64,000 nt of DNA from contig NZ_KE136473.1 of NCBI RefSeq assembly GCF_000407145.1, positions 124,001 through 188,000 of the forward strand, given 5' to 3'. Both the position numbers and the translations under genes were made by a program. This document shows, piece by piece, positions 49,897 through 60,050 of the stretch. Under the pieces are notes generated by a model. The model did not search any database. It saw nothing but the letters and a program-made list of their open reading frames with translations, and was not told the DNA's origin. Position 1 is the stretch's first letter; each line of letters opens with the position of its first letter. This DNA comes from Enterococcus caccae ATCC BAA-1240 (GTDB lineage Bacteria > Bacillota > Bacilli > Lactobacillales > Enterococcaceae).

Positions 49897-49925
49897 TTGA
49901 TTTTTTAATTTAAAAATTGTAAACT
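49897..49925 (+). promoter_or_regulatory. oppA promoter
   Basis: TTGATT (49897-49902), 17-bp spacer, TAAACT (49920-49925), with a leader of about 70 nt to the oppA ATG. The spacer contains TTTAA twice, a plausible target-adjacent motif for a TnpB-derived repressor. Confidence 0.7.
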
Positions 49926-50002
49926 ATACCTCAGTACAATAAATAATTATTAAATTCTGATTTTTCAGAAAATACTCAGGGTCTTTTAGGGAGGAAAAAA
50001 GA

Positions 50003-51679
50003 ATGAAGTTAAAGAAATCATTTGCTTTTGGATTCATCACTTTATTTAGTTTAACACTCGCAGCGTGCGGTAATGGCGGTGGAAATACAGACGATTCAGG
50101 CAGCTCAAAAAAGGCTGATGGCAAAGCAAGCGGAGAACAAATTTTCCGTATTAATGAACAACAAGAAATGCCAAGTGCTGATCCATCATTAGCAACTGAT
50201 GAGGTTAGTTTTACAGCTTTGAATAATGTTTATGAAGGAATTTACCGTTTAGATGAAAAAAATAAACCACAACCAGCTGGTGCTGCTGAAAAAGCAGAAA
50301 TGAGTGAAGATGGTCTTGTTTACAAAATCAAGTTAAACGAAGATGCTAAATGGTCTGACGGAAAACCTGTAAAAGCAGAAGATTATGTTTATGGATGGCA
50401 ACGTACCGTTGATCCTGCAACAGCTTCAGAATATGCTTCCCTTTACAGTGCTGTTAAAAATGGTCAAGACATCATGGATGGCAAGAAAGACAAATCTGAA
50501 TTAGGAATCAAAGCAGTTGGTGATTATGAATTAGAAGTCACTTTAGAGCAAGTAACACCGTTCATGGATTACTTATTTGCATTCCCTTCATTCTTCCCAC
50601 AAAGAAAAGACGTTGTGGAAAAATATGGTGCTAAATTTGCGGCAAACAGCGAAAATGCAGTATATAATGGGCCGTTTACTTTAGCCGATTTTGACGGACC
50701 AGGAACGGATACAGAATGGTCTCTTAAAAAGAATAAAGACTATTGGGATAACAAGACTGTTAAATTAGACGAAGTTAAAGTAAGTGTTGTGAAAGAAGCG
50801 CCTACATCATTGAATCTTTTCCAAGATGGTCAAGTAGATGAAGTGGTATTAAGTGGCGAGCTAGCACAACAAATGGCGAGTGACCCAGAATTCGTTATTG
50901 AAAAAGAAGCATCAACTCAATATATGGAATTAAATCAACGTGAGGCAAATTCACCATTTAAAAATGAAAACCTAAGAAAAGCAATTTCGTATTCAATCGA
51001 TCGCAAATCATTAGTTGATTCAATCTTAGGAGATGGTTCAATAGAACCAAAAGGTCTTGTTCCAGCAGATATGTCAACAAGTCCTAAAGGAGATAAAGAT
51101 TTTGCTGATGAAGCAGGAAATGTGATTGCACATGACGAGAAAAAAGCAAAAGAGTATTGGGAAAAAGCGAAAAAAGAATTGGGTATCACTAAGCTAGATA
51201 TGGACATTCTTTCTTCAGATACAGATTCTTCTAAGAAAACAGTTGAGTATCTACAAGGCGCTATTCAATCTACATTAGATGGTGTAAAAGTTACTGTTAG
51301 TCCCGTACCATTTGCTGTTCGTTTAGATCGTTCAAACAAAGGCGACTTTACAACAACAATCGGCGGTTGGGGAGCAGACTATGCTGATCCAAGTAGTTTC
51401 TTGAATCTATTTGAAACAGGAAATTCGTATAACCGTGGTCACTATAGTAGCCCTGAATACGATAAAAATGTTAAAGCAGCAGCGACAACAAATGCCAATG
51501 ATCCTGAAAAACGTTGGGATAATATGATCGATGCTGAAAAGGTTATTATGGATGATATGGGTGTTGTTCCACTTTACCAAAGAGCTCAAGCTCGTATGCG
51601 TTCAGAAAAAGTTAAAGGGATTGCATTCCACCCAGCTGGACCAAAATTTGATTACAAATGGGCTTATATCTCAGAATAA
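50003..51679 (+). CDS. oppA: oligopeptide ABC transporter substrate-binding lipoprotein OppA
   Basis: 558 residues. The lipoprotein signal has the lipobox LAAC (Cys about 22), followed by a Gly/Ser linker. The SBP_bac_5 domain shows EGIYRLDEKNKPQPAGA, YKIKLNEDAKWSDGKPVKAE (typical family signature), YGWQRTVDPATASEYASLY and LRKAISYSIDRKSLVD. It captures peptides (possibly including pheromones) for OppBCDF. RBS GGGAGG is 9 nt before ATG. It is separated from oppB by a terminator and an antisense gene, so it can be expressed in excess. Confidence 0.96.
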   Translation: MKLKKSFAFGFITLFSLTLAACGNGGGNTDDSGSSKKADGKASGEQIFRINEQQEMPSADPSLATDEVSFTALNNVYEGIYRLDEKNKPQPAGAAEKAEMSEDGLVYKIKLNEDAKWSDGKPVKAEDYVYGWQRTVDPATASEYASLYSAVKNGQDIMDGKKDKSELGIKAVGDYELEVTLEQVTPFMDYLFAFPSFFPQRKDVVEKYGAKFAANSENAVYNGPFTLADFDGPGTDTEWSLKKNKDYWDNKTVKLDEVKVSVVKEAPTSLNLFQDGQVDEVVLSGELAQQMASDPEFVIEKEASTQYMELNQREANSPFKNENLRKAISYSIDRKSLVDSILGDGSIEPKGLVPADMSTSPKGDKDFADEAGNVIAHDEKKAKEYWEKAKKELGITKLDMDILSSDTDSSKKTVEYLQGAIQSTLDGVKVTVSPVPFAVRLDRSNKGDFTTTIGGWGADYADPSSFLNLFETGNSYNRGHYSSPEYDKNVKAAATTNANDPEKRWDNMIDAEKVIMDDMGVVPLYQRAQARMRSEKVKGIAFHPAGPKFDYKWAYISE

Positions 51680-51696
51680 TCGAAATGGATAGTCAA

Positions 51697-51753
51697 TAGC
51701 AAAAAGGACCTTTGCCCTCTTTGAATAAAAAGGCAACGGTCCTCTTGCTATCT
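51697..51753. terminator. bidirectional terminator between oppA and the antisense gene
   Basis: TAGCAAAAAGGACC and GGTCCTCTTGCTA with inner TTGCC/GGCAA form a long imperfect stem at the convergent ends of oppA (+) and the DUF3899-like gene (-). Confidence 0.8.
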
Positions 51754-51757
51754 TTGC

Positions 51758-52105
51758 TCATAAAAAGTAAAATAATAAAGAAACAATAGCGACAATCAGT
51801 AAAATACCCCCAGTTTCAAGCCAGTAAAGCTGATGAGCTTTGCCGATTTCTGAAAATGGGATGAATTCTTTCGGTTCATTTTTCTTTTTAAAGCGAAAAT
51901 GCATTTTCATAAAACGTTGGAAATTATCAAAAAAACCTGAGGACATAATCCATAAGGCTAGACCGATAATCAGAAAGAATAATGAAACAATGAAGAAGGT
52001 ATCAGATACAGAACGGATAGTTAGTGATTGATTTATCACTAGGTAAGTGAAAATACCGATGCTTGAGACCGCTGAGGTAATCAAGGGCCATTTAAAGTTT
52101 TTCAT
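51758..52105 (-). CDS. DUF3899-like membrane protein
   Basis: 115 residues with three hydrophobic helices (about 8-24, 36-54 and 96-114) and a charged central loop FMKMHFRFKKKNEPKEF. The family is small membrane proteins of Firmicutes with no known role. It is encoded antisense in the gap between oppA and oppB and shares a terminator region with oppA. RBS AAGGATGAG precedes its ATG on the minus strand. Confidence 0.75.
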   Translation of the reverse strand: MKNFKWPLITSAVSSIGIFTYLVINQSLTIRSVSDTFFIVSLFFLIIGLALWIMSSGFFDNFQRFMKMHFRFKKKNEPKEFIPFSEIGKAHQLYWLETGGILLIVAIVSLLFYFL

Positions 52106-52186
52106 GTGCTCATCCTTACTTAATTTTCTATCCTTACTTTATCGAAAAAAGCTGATGAAGTCAAAATAATCTCGGAGGTGTCATTC

Positions 52187-53128
52187 TTGAACAGTTTTGG
52201 AAAATATTTTCTTAAACGGGTCTTCTTTATGATCATCACATTGTGGTTGATCGCAACGATTACGTTTTTCTTAATGCAATTATTACCAGGTACTCCTTAT
52301 ACCAACCAAGAAAAACTTAGTCCAGAAACAATTGCTATGTTGAATAAGCAATCTGGTTTAGATAAACCCGTGATCGTTCAATATGGAATTTACTTAAAAA
52401 ATCTGCTAGTTGGTGACTTTGGTATTTCATTCCAATTCAAAAATCAACCAGTAGCAAAACTTTTGGCAGGTCGTATTGGACCGTCAGTTCAATTAGGGGC
52501 GCAAGCCATTATCTTTGGTACACTAGTCGGTATTTTACTAGGAATCATTGCAGCGATGCGCCAAAATACATGGGTAGATACATTAGCGACATTAATGGCA
52601 ATTTTAGGACGTTCAATTCCTAACTTCGTCTTTGCCGTATTGTTACAGTATATCTTTGCCATGAAATTAAAAGTATTACCAATCGCAATGTGGAATGGTT
52701 TTGCTTATACGATTCTACCAACGATTGCTCTGGCGATGAGTCCGATGGCCGATTCTGCCAGGTTTATACGAACCGAGATGGTTGAAGTTTTACATAGTGA
52801 CTATGTAGAGTTAGCTCGTGCCAAAGGTTTGAGTCGTTGGCAAGTGGCTGTGAGACACGGACTTAGAAACAGTTTGATTCCTTTGATCACATTACTCGGC
52901 CCATTAGCTGTTGGGTTGATGACAGGATCTTTAGTTGTTGAAAATATTTTTGCTATCCCAGGTATTGGAGAACAGTTTGTAAAATCAATTATGACGAATG
53001 ACTATCCAACAATCATGGCTGTAACGATTTTATATTCTGCTTTACTAGTATTTGTTATTTTGATCGTTGATTTACTTTATGGATTGATCGATCCAAGAAT
53101 TCGTGTTTCAGGAGGTGCCAAAGGTTAA
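52187..53128 (+). CDS. oppB: oligopeptide ABC transporter permease OppB
   Basis: About 313 residues with six helices. The N-terminus FGKYFLKRVFFMIITLW and the EAA loop EVLHSDYVELARAKGLSRWQ are typical of DppB/OppB. TTG at 52187 is taken as start because GGAGG (52174-52178) is 8 nt upstream; the GTG at 52178 lies inside that site. It overlaps oppC by one base. Confidence 0.94.
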   Translation: MNSFGKYFLKRVFFMIITLWLIATITFFLMQLLPGTPYTNQEKLSPETIAMLNKQSGLDKPVIVQYGIYLKNLLVGDFGISFQFKNQPVAKLLAGRIGPSVQLGAQAIIFGTLVGILLGIIAAMRQNTWVDTLATLMAILGRSIPNFVFAVLLQYIFAMKLKVLPIAMWNGFAYTILPTIALAMSPMADSARFIRTEMVEVLHSDYVELARAKGLSRWQVAVRHGLRNSLIPLITLLGPLAVGLMTGSLVVENIFAIPGIGEQFVKSIMTNDYPTIMAVTILYSALLVFVILIVDLLYGLIDPRIRVSGGAKG

Positions 53129-54180
53129 TGGAAACAGTTGACTTAAACAATGTCCCAGATAAAATCAAAGAAATACCTGCAAAAGAATTCCAACCTTTGG
53201 ATACATCAACAACCAAGGAACGTGAACGAATTGCAACACCGTCATTGAGTTTTTTACAAGATTCTTGGCGTCGTTTGAAAAAGAATAAAGCTGCTGTGAT
53301 TTCTTTGATTTTACTCGGAATCATCATCTTTATTTCGATTATCACTATTTGGGTCTCACCTCATGACCCAACACAACAAAATGTAGCATACATCAACTTA
53401 CCACCGCGTATTCCATTTTTAGATAGTATCAATGGATTTAACGGTACAGCTAACGTTGCTGGTAAAATGGTAGACAAATACGCCCAAGCCAATGTTCCTG
53501 ATAATGTAAACTTTTATCTTGGAACTGATGGACTAGGTCGTGATGTATTAAGTCGCTTATTCATGGGAACGCGTATCTCATTATTGATCGCATTTATCGC
53601 AGCTTTACTTGATATTACGATCGGTGTAACATACGGTTTGATTTCAGGACTATTAGGTGGACGTGTGGATACAGTGATGCAACGTATCTTGGAAGTTCTT
53701 TCTGGAATTCCTAACCTTGTTGTCATGATCTTAATGCTAACTGTTTTTGATCCAGGTATTTTGTCAATCGTATTAGCGATGGTGATTACTAACTGGATTT
53801 CAATGGCCAGAATTGTTCGGGCTCAAACGTTGAAACTAAAAGATCAAGAATTTGTTTTAGCTGCCCAAACATTAGGGGAATCTCGTTTGAAGATTGCCGT
53901 AAAACATATTTTACCGAATATTTCGAGTGTGATCATTGTTCAAATGATGTTCAGTATCCCATCAGCAATTTTCTTCGAAGCGTTTCTAAGTTTCATTGGT
54001 TTAGGATTAAGACCGCCGACCGCTTCACTTGGAACATTATTAAATGAAGGATATAAAACGTTCCGCTTCCTTCCATATTTGATGTGGATTCCTGCCGTAA
54101 CACTGTCAGTCGTAATGATTTGTTTCAACTTGTTAGCTGACGGACTACGTGATGCCTTCGATCCTAAGATGAAAGAGTAG
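53128..54180 (+). CDS. oppC: oligopeptide ABC transporter permease OppC
   Basis: 350 residues. A long N-terminal cytoplasmic part (about 1-45) is followed by a first helix, an extracytoplasmic loop, and the permease domain with YLGTDGLGRDVLSRLFMGTR and the EAA-type loop QEFVLAAQTLGESRLKIAVK. It pairs with OppB to form the pore. ATG 53128 overlaps the oppB TAA, showing coupling. Confidence 0.95.
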   Translation: METVDLNNVPDKIKEIPAKEFQPLDTSTTKERERIATPSLSFLQDSWRRLKKNKAAVISLILLGIIIFISIITIWVSPHDPTQQNVAYINLPPRIPFLDSINGFNGTANVAGKMVDKYAQANVPDNVNFYLGTDGLGRDVLSRLFMGTRISLLIAFIAALLDITIGVTYGLISGLLGGRVDTVMQRILEVLSGIPNLVVMILMLTVFDPGILSIVLAMVITNWISMARIVRAQTLKLKDQEFVLAAQTLGESRLKIAVKHILPNISSVIIVQMMFSIPSAIFFEAFLSFIGLGLRPPTASLGTLLNEGYKTFRFLPYLMWIPAVTLSVVMICFNLLADGLRDAFDPKMKE

Positions 54181-54185
54181 AGTGA

Positions 54186-55247
54186 ATGACTATGGAAAAA
54201 GTATTAGAAGTAAAAGACTTACAGATTTCTTTTGATACGTTTGCTGGAAAAGTAAATGCTATTCGTGGCGTTAGCTTTGAGCTGTTCAAAGGGGAAACAC
54301 TTGCGATCGTAGGAGAGTCTGGTAGTGGTAAATCAGTGACTACTAGAAGTATCATGCGATTATTGAGCAGTAATGCAAACATCGATAATGGAGAAATCCT
54401 GTTTAAAGGTGAAGATATCGTACACAAAACGGAAAAACAAATGCAAACCATTCGTGGAAAAGAAATTGCAATGATTTTCCAAGACCCAATGACATCATTG
54501 GACCCAACAATGCCGATTGGCAAGCAAGTTGCGGAATCGTTAATCAAACACAATAAAGTCTCTAAAAAAGAAGGCTTGGATCAAGCGTTAGAATTATTGA
54601 AATTAGTAGGGATTCCAAACGCTGAAAAACGTTTGAAAAATTACCCTCACCAATTTTCAGGTGGACAACGTCAACGTATCGTGATTGCGATTGCTTTGAT
54701 CTGTTACCCAGAAGTTCTGATTGCCGATGAACCAACAACCGCTTTGGATGTTACGATCCAAGCGCAAATTTTAGAACTATTGAAAGATTTACAACAAAAA
54801 ATCAGCACATCGATCATCTTTATCACCCATGATCTAGGTGTGGTAGCAAACGTGGCTGACCGTGTAGCGGTAATGTACGGTGGACGTTTAGTTGAAGTGG
54901 GAACATCAGAAGAAATCTTCTACAATCCACAACATCCATACACATGGGGCTTATTAGGCTCAATGCCGACAATGGAAGGAACAGAAGATAAGCTATACGC
55001 GATTCCTGGTTCACCTCCCGATTTGTTAGATCCACCAAAAGGAGATGCTTTCTATCCGCGTAATGAATTTGCGATGAAGATCGATGCAGAAGAAGCACCA
55101 CCGTATTTTGAAGTATCACCAACTCATAAAGCTGCAACGTGGTTATTAGCACCGCAAGCACCAAAAATCACTCCTCCAGCTGAGATTGTAAGACGTTGGG
55201 CGATTTACGCTGAGCGCCATAATACGACTGCAGGAGGCGTTAAATAA
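54186..55247 (+). CDS. oppD: oligopeptide ABC transporter ATPase OppD
   Basis: 353 residues: Walker [14 protein letters not shown]-loop FQDPMTSLDP, signature [15 protein letters not shown], Walker B VLIADEPTTALD and switch His THDLGVV. The C-terminal Opp/Dpp extension (PGSPPDLLDPPKGDAFYPRN) lacks the cysteines that bind the iron-sulfur cluster in some homologues. It overlaps oppF by the ATGA arrangement (TAATGA). Confidence 0.96.
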   Translation: MTMEKVLEVKDLQISFDTFAGKVNAIRGVSFELFKGETLAIVGESGSGKSVTTRSIMRLLSSNANIDNGEILFKGEDIVHKTEKQMQTIRGKEIAMIFQDPMTSLDPTMPIGKQVAESLIKHNKVSKKEGLDQALELLKLVGIPNAEKRLKNYPHQFSGGQRQRIVIAIALICYPEVLIADEPTTALDVTIQAQILELLKDLQQKISTSIIFITHDLGVVANVADRVAVMYGGRLVEVGTSEEIFYNPQHPYTWGLLGSMPTMEGTEDKLYAIPGSPPDLLDPPKGDAFYPRNEFAMKIDAEEAPPYFEVSPTHKAATWLLAPQAPKITPPAEIVRRWAIYAERHNTTAGGVK

Positions 55248-56206
55248 TGAGTGAAAAAAGAAAAGTACTTTTAGATGTTAAAGGACTAAAACAATATTTT
55301 AACGTTGGACGTCCTGATGAAGTAAGAGCGGTTGATGATATCAGTTTCCATATCTATGAAGGCGAAACCTTCGGGTTGGTTGGAGAATCTGGTAGTGGTA
55401 AATCAACGACAGGTCGCAGTGTAATTCGTTTATATGACCCAACCGATGGCGAAATCATTTTTGATGGGGATGATATCAGTAAAATTCGTTCAAAATCAGC
55501 AATGCAAGCATTTCGTCGTGAAGTGCAAATGATTTTCCAAGATCCTTATGCTTCGTTGAATCCTAGAATGAAAGTCAATGATATTATTGCAGAAGGAATC
55601 GACATCAATCATTTAGCGAAAGATGCAGCTGAACGCGAATCAAAAGTCAACGAATTACTAAAAGTCGTTGGTCTTGATCCAAGTCATGGTACACGTTATC
55701 CACATGAGTTTTCAGGTGGACAACGTCAACGTATCGGGATTGCAAGAGCATTAGCTGTTGATCCACGCTTCATCATTTGTGATGAGCCAATTTCAGCATT
55801 GGACGTTTCAATCCAAGCGCAAGTCGTTAATTTATTGCAAGACTTACAAAAAGATGCTGGCCTGACTTACTTGTTTATTGCCCATGATTTATCCATGGTG
55901 AAACATATCAGTGACCGTATCGGCGTGATGCATAGCGGTAGATTATTGGAAATGGGGTCAAGTGATGATGTGTATAACTTTGGTGTACATCCGTATACTG
56001 AAAGTTTACTATCAGCTATCCCATTGCCTGATCCAGATTATGAGCGTACACGTAAACGTATCGTTTATAAACCACAACCAGAAGACAACAAAGAACGTAA
56101 ACTAAGAGAAATCACACCTGAGCATTATGTGTATTGTTCGGAAGATGAAGTTGACGTTTACCGTAAGAAAATTGAAGAGAAAAAAGCCCAAGCGAATCAC
56201 GAGTAG
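55247..56206 (+). CDS. oppF: oligopeptide ABC transporter ATPase OppF
   Basis: 319 residues: Walker [14 protein letters not shown]-loop [12 protein letters not shown], signature [15 protein letters not shown], Walker [12 protein letters not shown], and [17 protein letters not shown]. It forms the second nucleotide-binding subunit with OppD. It is the last gene of the opp operon and is followed by a terminator, tandem repeats and the nuclease-dead TnpB homologue, the gene order reported for oppF-associated TldR systems. Confidence 0.96.
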
Positions 56207-56223: not shown

Positions 56224-56272
56224 GACTAGCTAAGAAAAGAAATCATTTTTTCTTAGCTAGAATTTTTAAAAC
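56224..56272 (+). terminator. opp operon terminator
   Basis: CTAGCTAAGAAAA and TTTTCTTAGCTAG flank a short loop, followed by AATTTTTA. Confidence 0.9.
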
Positions 56273-56289
56273 ATTAGATGAATGAATCA

Positions 56290-56745
56290 GTTTTCATTCT
56301 GACGTAATGATTTTAGATGGCTTTATGAGACAACGCTCTCAGTAAGTTAGGTGTCTCATTCAGCTTTTTATCTAGTCTAGCTTCACGGGCTAGCACCTCG
56401 GAAAAAAGATAAAATAAGAGTGAGACAAAAAGCGTCTCAATCGTAATTTCCTATTTTTCAGTCGGTGCTGAACGAGCCCGCTCAGCTTTTTATCTAGTCT
56501 AGCTTCGCAGGCTAGTCTCTCGGAAAAAAGATAAAATCTAAATGAGGCAAAAAGCACCTCAGTTAGATTTTCCTATTTTTCAGTCGAGACTAAACGAGCC
56601 CGCTCAGCTTTTTATTCAATCTAGCTTCATGAGACAGCTCTCTCGGCAAGTAGATAAATATATTGAAAGATAAAAAGCATCTTTCAATATATTTCCTAAC
56701 TTGCTCAAGAGCTAAACGTCTCATTCAGCTTTTTATTGGTAGGGT
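56290..56745. repeat. tandem structured repeats with covarying stems
   Basis: About three and a half units of roughly 125 bp. Each has CGGAAAAAAGAT-like sequence, a stem with loop AAAAAGC, TTTCCTATTTTTCAGTC, then GAGCCCGCTCAGCTTTTTAT and CTAGTCTAGCTTC. Inner stems differ but stay paired: TGAGAC/GTCTCA (56421-56439), a 13-bp stem (56535-56547 with 56557-56569), and a perfect 16-bp stem (56656-56671 with 56679-56694). Outer arms also change together: AGCACC/GGTGCT, AGTCTC/GAGACT, AGCTCT/AGAGCT. Paired change with constant loops indicates selection on structure. No ORF was seen. Confidence 0.8.
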
Positions 56746-56754
56746 GGTATTCAA

Positions 56755-57876
56755 ATGAAGGTATTAAAGGCTTATAAATACAGGCTTTACCCTACGGCAT
56801 CACAAGAAGAATTTATTAAAAAAACTTTTTCTTGTGTAAGGCTTGTGCATAATCTTTTATTACAGGAACGGATTAAGTTGTATAAGCAACTGAAAGAGGA
56901 CCCTAATTTAAAAGTTAAGTTACCGACACCTGCTCAATATAAAAAAGAGTATCCTTGTTTAAAGGAAGTGGATAGTTTAGCTTTATCGAATGCGCAAGTT
57001 TATTTGGATCGAGCATTTAAAAAATTTCACAGAGAAAAGTCAATTGGTTTTCCCAAATTGAAACAGAAAAAAGATTCTGTTTGCTCTTATACAACGAATA
57101 ATCAAAATGGTACAGTGAAAATTATTGATGAAAAATATTTAAAAGTACCTAAATTAAAATCGTTAGTGAGAATGAAGATGCATCGTCCAGTAATAGGGAA
57201 AATAAAGTCAGCAACGATTTCTTTGGCTCCCAGTAACAAATATTTTGTTTCAATCTTATGTGAAGAGGAAATTCCAACGATCGAGAAGACCTATTCGGCG
57301 GTTGGCATAACCTTAGGTGCTTCTGAATTTGCGATATTATCAAACGGTAGACGTATCGACAATGATAAATTTACGAAAGAATTCGAGCAGCGAATCACGA
57401 GAGAAGAAAGAAAACTGACACGTCGTAAAGAAATTGCAAAAGCAAAAGGGACGGATCTTTCCCAACAAAAGAATTACCAGAAACAAAAATTGAAAGTAGC
57501 GAAAATGCGGGAAAAGCTGATGAATCAACGAATCGATTTTCTTAATAAGATCACGACAGAAATTGTTCGAAAGTACGATTTGATTTGCATAGAAGATATT
57601 CATCAAGCTGATTTTTATAGAAATAGTAAGTTACATCGTGGCATCTCAGATGTTTCTTGGGCTTTATTTGTTTCAAAGCTTGAATATAAAGCTACATGGT
57701 ATAACAAAAGAGTGATCAAGGTTTTAGCTTGCGGAAAATGTTCTGAACATTCAGAAAATAACGTGAGTCAAATTTTTACTCAAGATATCAATGAGCAAAA
57801 AGGACTGCAAGATCCTGAGACTGCTGCTAGTATCAACGTATTGATCCAAGGACTGAAAGAAACAACAGGCAATTAA
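56755..57876 (+). CDS. tldR: TnpB-like nuclease-dead protein (TldR type, oppF-associated)
   Basis: 373 residues of the IS200/IS605 TnpB (OrfB) family. The N-terminus VLKAYKYRLYPTASQEEFIKK is typical. The RuvC core is altered: the first motif, normally VGIDLG, reads VGITLG (Thr186); the second keeps Glu280 (ICIEDIHQAD); the third, normally DRDINAA, reads DPETAAS (Glu355). The zinc finger keeps CGKC but lacks the second Cys pair. Two catalytic acids are thus changed, so cleavage should be lost while RNA-guided binding may remain. It has no TnpA partner and sits downstream of oppF, as in known TldR repressors. A decaying TnpB is the alternative, but the frame is intact. Confidence 0.85.
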   Translation: MKVLKAYKYRLYPTASQEEFIKKTFSCVRLVHNLLLQERIKLYKQLKEDPNLKVKLPTPAQYKKEYPCLKEVDSLALSNAQVYLDRAFKKFHREKSIGFPKLKQKKDSVCSYTTNNQNGTVKIIDEKYLKVPKLKSLVRMKMHRPVIGKIKSATISLAPSNKYFVSILCEEEIPTIEKTYSAVGITLGASEFAILSNGRRIDNDKFTKEFEQRITREERKLTRRKEIAKAKGTDLSQQKNYQKQKLKVAKMREKLMNQRIDFLNKITTEIVRKYDLICIEDIHQADFYRNSKLHRGISDVSWALFVSKLEYKATWYNKRVIKVLACGKCSEHSENNVSQIFTQDINEQKGLQDPETAASINVLIQGLKETTGN

Positions 57877-58023
57877 CAAAGTAAAGAACTGTAGGGACTA
57901 CAGGGATAGCCTAGGGCATATAAGATAGATATAGCGTTTAGTCGATCATTTATCTTTTTCTAGGAAATTTCTAGTTAATAGAAATAGTTCACTAATTATT
58001 AGTTAATGAAAAATAAAAAATTG
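57877..58023 (+). ncRNA. candidate guide RNA (omega-RNA-like) region after the TnpB-like gene
   Basis: TnpB guide RNAs derive from the 3' end of the gene and the element right end. Here a G-rich structured stretch (ACTGTAGGGACTACAGGGAT and GCCTAGGGC, about 57888-57918) follows the stop codon, then AT-rich sequence up to a terminator at 58024-58084. The scaffold/guide boundary cannot be fixed from one sequence. I found no convincing match longer than chance to the oppA promoter region. Its existence is inferred from the family. Confidence 0.45.
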
Positions 58024-58084
58024 AACTTTATTCCTCTTAATTCAAGCAACCAATAGTTTGGATAAGATAGAATAAAGTTTTTTG
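58024..58084 (+). terminator. terminator of the TnpB-like gene / guide RNA transcript
   Basis: AACTTTATTC (58024-58033) pairs with GAATAAAGTT (58070-58079), with an inner CCAA/TTGG stem, followed by TTTTT. Confidence 0.75.
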
Positions 58085-58143
58085 TTGTATCCGTTAAAAA
58101 TATAGTACAATAATAGTAAATAAAGGTGAAGAAAAGGGGCCGC

Positions 58144-59847: not shown

Positions 59848-60050
59848 GTTGAGAAATGAAAGCAGAAGCACCCGCTTCTCGCCTTAGCTGACAACGTCAC
59901 TGGGCTGGATATTGGATTCCTTATATCAATTGATATGAGTCCGAAAATCGCGGGGTCTGTATAACAGAGCCTGTTTTTTATTGTGTTTTTCACAATAACA
60001 GACTTTGGGAATAAGCGTTTCAGCATTGATTTTCTCTTAAAAAACTTGGA
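59848..60050 (+). ncRNA. L20-type ribosomal protein leader with attenuator
   Basis: A leader of about 200 nt before infC contains CACCCGCTTCTCGCC, AACGTCACTGGGCTG and a terminator-like stem GGGTCTG / CAGAGCC (59953-59971) followed by TTTTTT. Infc-rpmI-rplT operons of Firmicutes are controlled by L20 binding to such a leader, which leads to premature termination. The assignment rests mainly on position and layout; the structure was not computed. Confidence 0.65.

Follow-up and report, generated by a model that had tools for sequence, protein, structure and literature searches.

What could a transposon-derived gene do when it is kept next to an oligopeptide uptake operon? This question is raised by the 64,000-nucleotide stretch of Enterococcus caccae DNA analyzed here (the window), in which an open reading frame of 373 codons with an ATG start (tldR, 56755..57876, plus strand) lies 3' of oppABCDF. 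The initial annotation, made from the letters of the sequence, had proposed that it encodes a nuclease-dead TnpB homologue of the TldR type, exapted as an RNA-guided transcription factor. We hold it to be highly probable that tldR and the RNA adjoining its 3' end constitute an RNA-guided transcription repressor, derived from the tnpB and the right-end RNA of an IS200/IS605 element, that would lower oligopeptide uptake and probably also act in trans.

We thus analyzed the protein. The frame is a real one in the list of open reading frames, and its homology with TnpB was confirmed by Pfam and PDB searches. The 373-residue product matched HTH_OrfB_IS605 (2.6e-17) and OrfB_IS605 (2.1e-15), while its C-terminal match to Cas12f1-like_TNB stayed below the Pfam cut-off. 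Its top PDB relatives by sequence search were an AI-designed RNA-guided nuclease together with the TnpB entries 8h1j and 8bf8 (ISDra2 TnpB), with an alignment over residues 5-324. When aligned with intact TnpBs from the family to which the bacterium belongs, the predicted RuvC positions are occupied by Thr186 and Glu355, where the intact proteins have Asp, and by the retained Glu280, just as the initial annotation had read them. In the window protein and the 20 orthologues fetched from the genus (21/21), the first position is occupied by Thr or Ser, and the second and third are both Glu. The zinc ribbon has indeed lost one half: the second CxxC is absent from all 21 orthologues, and the first is present in most of them and lost in some. 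In other genera, both RuvC Asp are absent from 44/44 readable TldRs (out of 46, two being left out for a start-coordinate problem), the middle Glu is retained in 32/44, and the C-terminal part of the protein is absent.

Such losses could also be expected from a decaying transposon remnant whose acids disappeared by drift and whose neighboring RNA is the fossil of a right end. The TnpB ancestry is clear, and no TnpA is seen alongside, the absence claimed by the initial annotation being borne out in the 48-62 kb listing, where no TnpA-like open reading frame was recognized by eye, without a family model. The partial erosion of the zinc ribbon, the missing C-terminal part in other genera and the shortened gene match in one genome (G049, 225 residues) are also compatible with decay. 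However, the frame is maintained despite the loss of the acids, as had been claimed: dN/dS relative to the window was 0.05-0.095 for 15 of the 20 genus orthologues, those with an estimable dS, the five others being saturated. Judged by these ratios, tldR is under purifying selection. In addition, all 21 genus genomes that carry tldR have a single match in a fixed synteny, the RNA scaffold displays compensatory changes and the target site is tied to the presence of the gene, as detailed below. A remnant is thus already contradicted, and we consider it extremely unlikely. An active IS200/IS605 TnpB does not fit the window gene either, which lacks the Asp/Glu/Asp triad, a full zinc ribbon and a tnpA element and is not multicopy, the TldR protein finding only one match in its own genome.

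In the genus, 21 of 22 genomes possess tldR, with one match each at a threshold of 1e-40, and in 21/21 it lies 3' of oppABCDF; the only genome without it, G072, is also devoid of Ref70, the RNA described below, and of an OppB match at 1e-100. Over the whole family, 105 genomes were searched and 73 have tldR: 21 belong to the genus, 46 come from outside it and possess an opp locus, and there are six others. Outside the genus, it comes after oppF in 46 of 65 opp operons. The six others were first classed as opp-less on the lack of an OppB match at 1e-100. Three of them, G037, G039 and G041 (loci L244-L246), retain TldR and the guide RNA without a close OppB; there, tldR adjoins an acetyltransferase-like gene, as read by eye from the open reading frames. 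For G063-G065 this classification was rejected and the three were counted apart, since their tldR lies downstream of a divergent OppF-like gene.

In the window, the initial annotation had reported a full oppABCDF set, and this was confirmed at 50003-56206, all on the plus strand: oppA (50003..51679), oppB (52178..53128), oppC (53128..54180), oppD (54186..55247) and oppF (55247..56206). A hairpin resembling an intrinsic terminator follows oppF (56226..56260, plus strand), and tandem 122-bp units with hairpins occupy 56353-56736, between this terminator and tldR. The distance from oppF to tldR is about 8-76 nt in 37/46 loci outside the genus, so that co-transcription with opp and negative feedback are likely there. 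Within the genus it amounts to 61-897 nt and is filled in the window by the terminator and the hairpin repeats; tldR may therefore depend on its own promoter or on read-through. The interval between oppA and oppB (51690-52105) contains a strong hairpin as well as an oppositely oriented DUF3899 gene, and oppBCDF may thus be expressed separately from oppA. The oppA sequences of the genus (50003-51679 in the window; L052-L071) fall into two allele classes, with 91-98% and 71-79% identity to that of the window. These classes do not track oppB-oppF, which suggests an exchange of oppA alone. Further along the window, an L20 leader match at 59854-59987 falls slightly short of its gathering score (54.3 against 58.7 bits), upstream of infC-rpmI-rplT-like open reading frames.

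An RNA-guided repressor would need a guide, and a candidate adjoins tldR. A full-length match to Ref70 (Rfam RF02841) covers positions 57883-58004 with 135.6 bits, against a gathering score of 115. Its scaffold (57883..57992, plus strand) has three main hairpins and ends with AGTTCAC, after which TAATTATT opens the putative guide (57993..58004, plus strand, TAATTATTAGTT up to the limit of the Ref70 model). Beyond the guide, an inverted repeat with a T run (58013..58090, plus strand) is a candidate terminator of this RNA. Ref70 was found directly 3' of tldR in 21/21 genus genomes with tldR, scoring above the gathering score in 17. In the alignment of the 21 genomes, AGTTCAC is invariant and is followed by TAATTATTA in 20/21 and by TAATTATAA in L061, the sequence being variable beyond. 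RNAalifold applied to 21 distinct scaffolds proposed 27 pairs, nine of them with a double change; the exceptions were three unpaired cells in the last hairpin and two pairs absent from four rows.

The start of the guide could be placed by comparison with the closest active relatives, which include seven copies in G055 and share 55-57% protein identity with TldR. These relatives have both CxxC and the third Asp intact (L073, which was examined for it, has the full Asp/Glu/Asp triad), and they are IS200/IS605 elements, the sequence upstream of tnpB reading by eye as tnpA. Because the right ends of the active copies carry the same terminal AGTTCAC and diverge after it, we set the start of the guide at 57993. 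The Ref70 model also matches the 3' ends of three active elements below the gathering score (E 0.0048, 0.014 and 0.31). The IS200/IS605 TnpBs of Enterococcaceae (L022, L072-L077) have the RNA 3' end and the TTTAA motif of tldR loci, but unlike TldR they retain the third Asp and the two CxxC, are multicopy and have a tnpA-like sequence directly upstream, as judged by eye. In Rfam, Ref70 is described as an Enterococcus sRNA gene with no role stated; we read it here as the guide RNA of TldR.

The motif TTTAA precedes the apparent left end in 7/7 copies of one active element of G055, and we take it as the TAM. In the window, TTTAA followed by an 8-nt match to the guide (TAATTATT) is found on the minus strand at 49942..49954 (TTTAA at plus coordinates 49950-49954), roughly 50-60 nt before oppA begins, and is the predicted target; nucleotides 1-8 of the guide match it, and nucleotides 1-6 are kept across the family. 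A reading of the guide on the plus strand, with a 9-nt match (TAATTATTA) at 49944-49952, was dropped because TTTAA, which flanks the active copies, is present only on the minus-strand side. The oppA promoter that the initial annotation had placed at 49897..49925 (plus strand) corresponds to a conserved TTGATT-17-TAAACT pair, though a consensus scan did not report it. Downstream, at 49960..49974 (plus strand), lies a CodY-like box (ATTTTTCAGAAAATA) with two mismatches to the consensus; a similar box (TTCTGAAAAT) also exists in opp promoters without tldR.

TTTAA plus nucleotides 1-8 of the guide occurs once in the 64 kb (0.03 expected; three of 100 shuffled sequences had one). The same 13-mer occurs twice in the 3.55 Mb genome, as does its reversed control, and the 11-mer TTTAATAATTA, that is TTTAA plus nucleotides 1-6, occurs six times against 13 for the reversed control. 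There is no genome-wide enrichment of the motif, and the sites are distinguished by their location, not by their number. Absent from the initial annotation were the guide RNA and the TAM, as well as the precise target (49942-49954) and the additional targets described below.

We then compared the presence of the gene with that of the site in 86 opp loci (65 fetched outside the genus and 21 of the genus). A locus was counted as lacking tldR when the sequence retrieved 3' of oppF gave no match, which was the case for 19 loci, one of them being the second opp operon of G007, whose other operon carries tldR. TTTAA followed by TAATTA was present upstream of oppA in 67/67 loci with tldR and in 0/19 without it, so that gene and site agree in 86/86. 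Four apparent exceptions among the loci with tldR (G059-G061 and G096) were rejected, the site being upstream of the first oppA in each: G059-G061 have a tandem second oppA upstream, with the site before the first one, and the G096 stretch had been truncated. Outside the genus, the guide was readable in 45 of the 46 opp loci with tldR, the exception being the shortened G049 locus. The agreement between guide and target is short, only 6-9 nt in AT-rich DNA and usually with differences beyond. The association has a Fisher p of 1.8e-19 for loci that are related to each other; on a tree of OppC and OppD, either trait undergoes only three transitions, all concordant (3/3; sign test p 0.25, not significant).

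This small number of independent transitions leaves some room for another interpretation, in which TTTAATAATTA belongs to the promoter or is bound by a different regulator, the guide match being incidental or copied. The site does lie in or beside promoters with a CodY-like box adjoining, and a livJ site persists in G072, which is without tldR. Nevertheless, the 19 opp promoters without tldR are devoid of the site, although those of them that were aligned keep the promoter and the CodY-like box. Moreover, among the 6-mers that follow TTTAA in these promoters, TAATTA (67/67) is far ahead of the next best (15/67). A third argument against another regulator is that the site occurs at two non-equivalent positions and on both strands. 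We consequently judge this interpretation to be quite unlikely.

These positions were established by aligning 28 chosen promoters, including eight without tldR, in which the promoter and the CodY-like box are kept and the site is absent. In 15/15 aligned promoters with tldR from genera other than those of the window and of G001, the site fills the spacer between -35 and -10 on the plus strand, as in TTGCTT-TTTTAATAATTATTCAT-TAAACT. The genus of the window and G001 show a degenerate spacer instead, the site being located about 40 bp further on, downstream of the -10, on the minus strand. Counted by strand, 45 of the 46 loci with tldR outside the genus have a plus-strand site, G001 being the exception. 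As read from this alignment, the oppA site has moved between genera, and since it sits in the spacer on one strand and downstream on the other, two separate origins with an identical seed are probable.

The same alignment bears on the idea that Ref70 is an ordinary antisense sRNA acting on the oppA mRNA, TldR being merely its chaperone. In the genus of the window this would be plausible, the guide being complementary to the presumed 5' leader of oppA through the minus-strand site downstream of the -10. The spacer occupied by the 15 plus-strand sites, however, is not transcribed from that promoter, which argues against pairing with the mRNA as the mechanism. At livJ, too, the plus strand carries the site, and the TTTAA beside the match is conserved, whereas it would be required for DNA targeting and not for mRNA pairing. 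A purely antisense action therefore appears very unlikely to us.

Altogether, the window locus displays the features of TldRs, namely TnpB homology, loss of RuvC acids in a maintained frame, a guide RNA at the 3' end, a promoter match beside a TAM and a stable linkage outside any transposon. The sequence-level predictions of the initial annotation that could be tested (acid loss, selection, a 3' guide RNA locus and a TAM-flanked match at oppA) all came out as expected and support its view of the gene as a putative TldR-type RNA-guided repressor.

Oligopeptide uptake may not be the only function concerned. Of the six TAM+6-nt sites of the genome itself, three are within open reading frames and three lie before oppA, before another oligopeptide ABC operon (opp2, beside an acpP-like gene) and before the gene of a livJ-like binding protein (livJ), the last site being on the plus strand. 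The opp2 site is present in 9/17 genus genomes having both tldR and opp2 (G000, G073, G076, G078, G080, G082, G083, G084 and G089) and absent from G072. The livJ site exists in 18/22 genus genomes, including G072, and is missing from 4/21 members with tldR (G071, G075, G082 and G085). For G086-G091, the opp2 and livJ calls come from the list of 13-mers and from alignments. The idea of livJ as a family-wide target was rejected: among 56 genomes fetched out of the 65 outside the genus with a LivJ match, 0/32 with tldR and 0/24 without it have the site. A perfect CodY-like box precedes livJ, and a sequence resembling the 122-bp units is also found upstream of this gene. As CodY-like boxes adjoin the oppA target and precede livJ, TldR and CodY may share targets.

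The six genomes with tldR and without a close OppB provided a further view of possible targets. They contain 41 sites, all of which were read; ten are inside open reading frames and 18 precede amino-acid or peptide genes, according to Pfam and NCBIfam labels on the downstream neighbors: seven family-5 binding proteins, four family-3 binding proteins, two amino-acid permeases, three leuA, one argG and one DcuC-family gene, a YfcC-like antiporter below the NCBIfam cut-off. The remaining sites precede other genes (e.g. SIR2, xanthine/uracil-type permease, HGD-D, MupG) or unlabelled ones. In each of G063-G065, one site most likely marks the promoter of the divergent opp operon to which tldR itself belongs, since tldR comes there after the divergent OppF-like gene. 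Without these three sites, the proportion is 15/38, and it is 9/17 in the true orphans G037, G039 and G041. As a control, we read 39 of the 72 sites of six genomes without tldR: 0/39 precede amino-acid or peptide transport or biosynthesis genes, 19 are inside open reading frames and seven have no assigned gene. Compared with these 39, the Fisher p values, uncorrected for relatedness and based on control genomes from other genera and mechanical gene calls, are 4.4e-6 (15/38) and 3.2e-6 (9/17).

From the losses of Asp, the purifying selection, the position and covariation of the RNA, the TAM, the guide match tied to tldR and the sites in trans, all of them features of sequence, we infer binding to RNA and DNA, repression, feedback and a physiological role. 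The TldR protein would bind the Ref70 scaffold, and nucleotides 1-6 to 1-8 of the guide (TAATTATT) would pair with the DNA beside TTTAA, just downstream of the -10 of oppA. Being unable to cut, the complex would block RNA polymerase, and oligopeptide uptake would decrease. A site in the spacer would be expected to block initiation, and a site downstream of the -10, early elongation. Where oppF and tldR lie close together, a negative feedback would be expected, and in the window genome the same short guide, which fits the sites before opp2 and livJ, would probably also act in trans on the supply of peptides and amino acids.

Enterococcal TldRs associated with oppF are reportedly the subject of a 2024 Nature paper by Wiegand et al., which is said to describe TnpB-like proteins with lost RuvC acids, a gene 3' of oppF, a 3' guide RNA and the oppA promoter as target. 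These traits are those of the window locus; described here are the locus of this species, the Ref70 identity, the shift of the site to another position and strand, and the opp2, livJ and amino-acid sites. A literature search whose coverage left out most subscription papers returned nothing on opp TldRs, the Ref70 identity, a moving site or a wider regulon, and a term look-up in the main texts of enterococcal sRNA papers gave no mention of Ref70. The oppF-TldR group is already known, whereas the identification of Ref70 and the broader regulon appear to be new.

Parallels can be drawn with TldRs of other bacteria. PMC13418256 confirms the TldR concept and describes the FliC-associated TldR of Enterobacter prophages as a nuclease-dead TnpB repressor with a gRNA and a promoter target, repressive with 6-nt guides, a 6-nt seed being sufficient. 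By comparison, the window TldR is chromosomal and has been retained next to a nutrient operon across the genus, and its sites suggest several targets per guide. According to PMC13418256, the csrA-linked TldRs of Oscillibacter are likewise host-encoded, and several homologues are the predicted cross-targets of their guides; these TldRs differ from the present case by several guides and fliC targets, against one seed and amino-acid or peptide genes here. A term look-up for enterococci in PMC13418256 gave no mention.

On balance, we lean towards a broader proposal, in which TldR and Ref70, its guide, would act in trans as an RNA-guided regulator that controls the supply of amino acids and peptides across the Enterococcaceae. 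One 6-nt seed would be nearly fixed in the family, and targets would be gained and lost as the TTTAATAATTA site moves before opp, livJ, transporters of polar or branched-chain amino acids and leuA, in the way the sites of protein repressors evolve. Peptide uptake by Opp also matters for enterococcal signalling. If this is true, an RNA-guided protein would have left its transposon and been retained in much of a bacterial family as a nutrient regulator, recognizing DNA through a TAM together with about six bases of the guide, and a small RNA of unstated role would receive a function. The system would also offer a directly testable regulon and a model for the evolution of target sets of natural CRISPRi-like regulators, in which the site moves and the guide stays. 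In enterococci, TldR and its small RNA appear to be a switch that lowers the import of peptides and amino acids.
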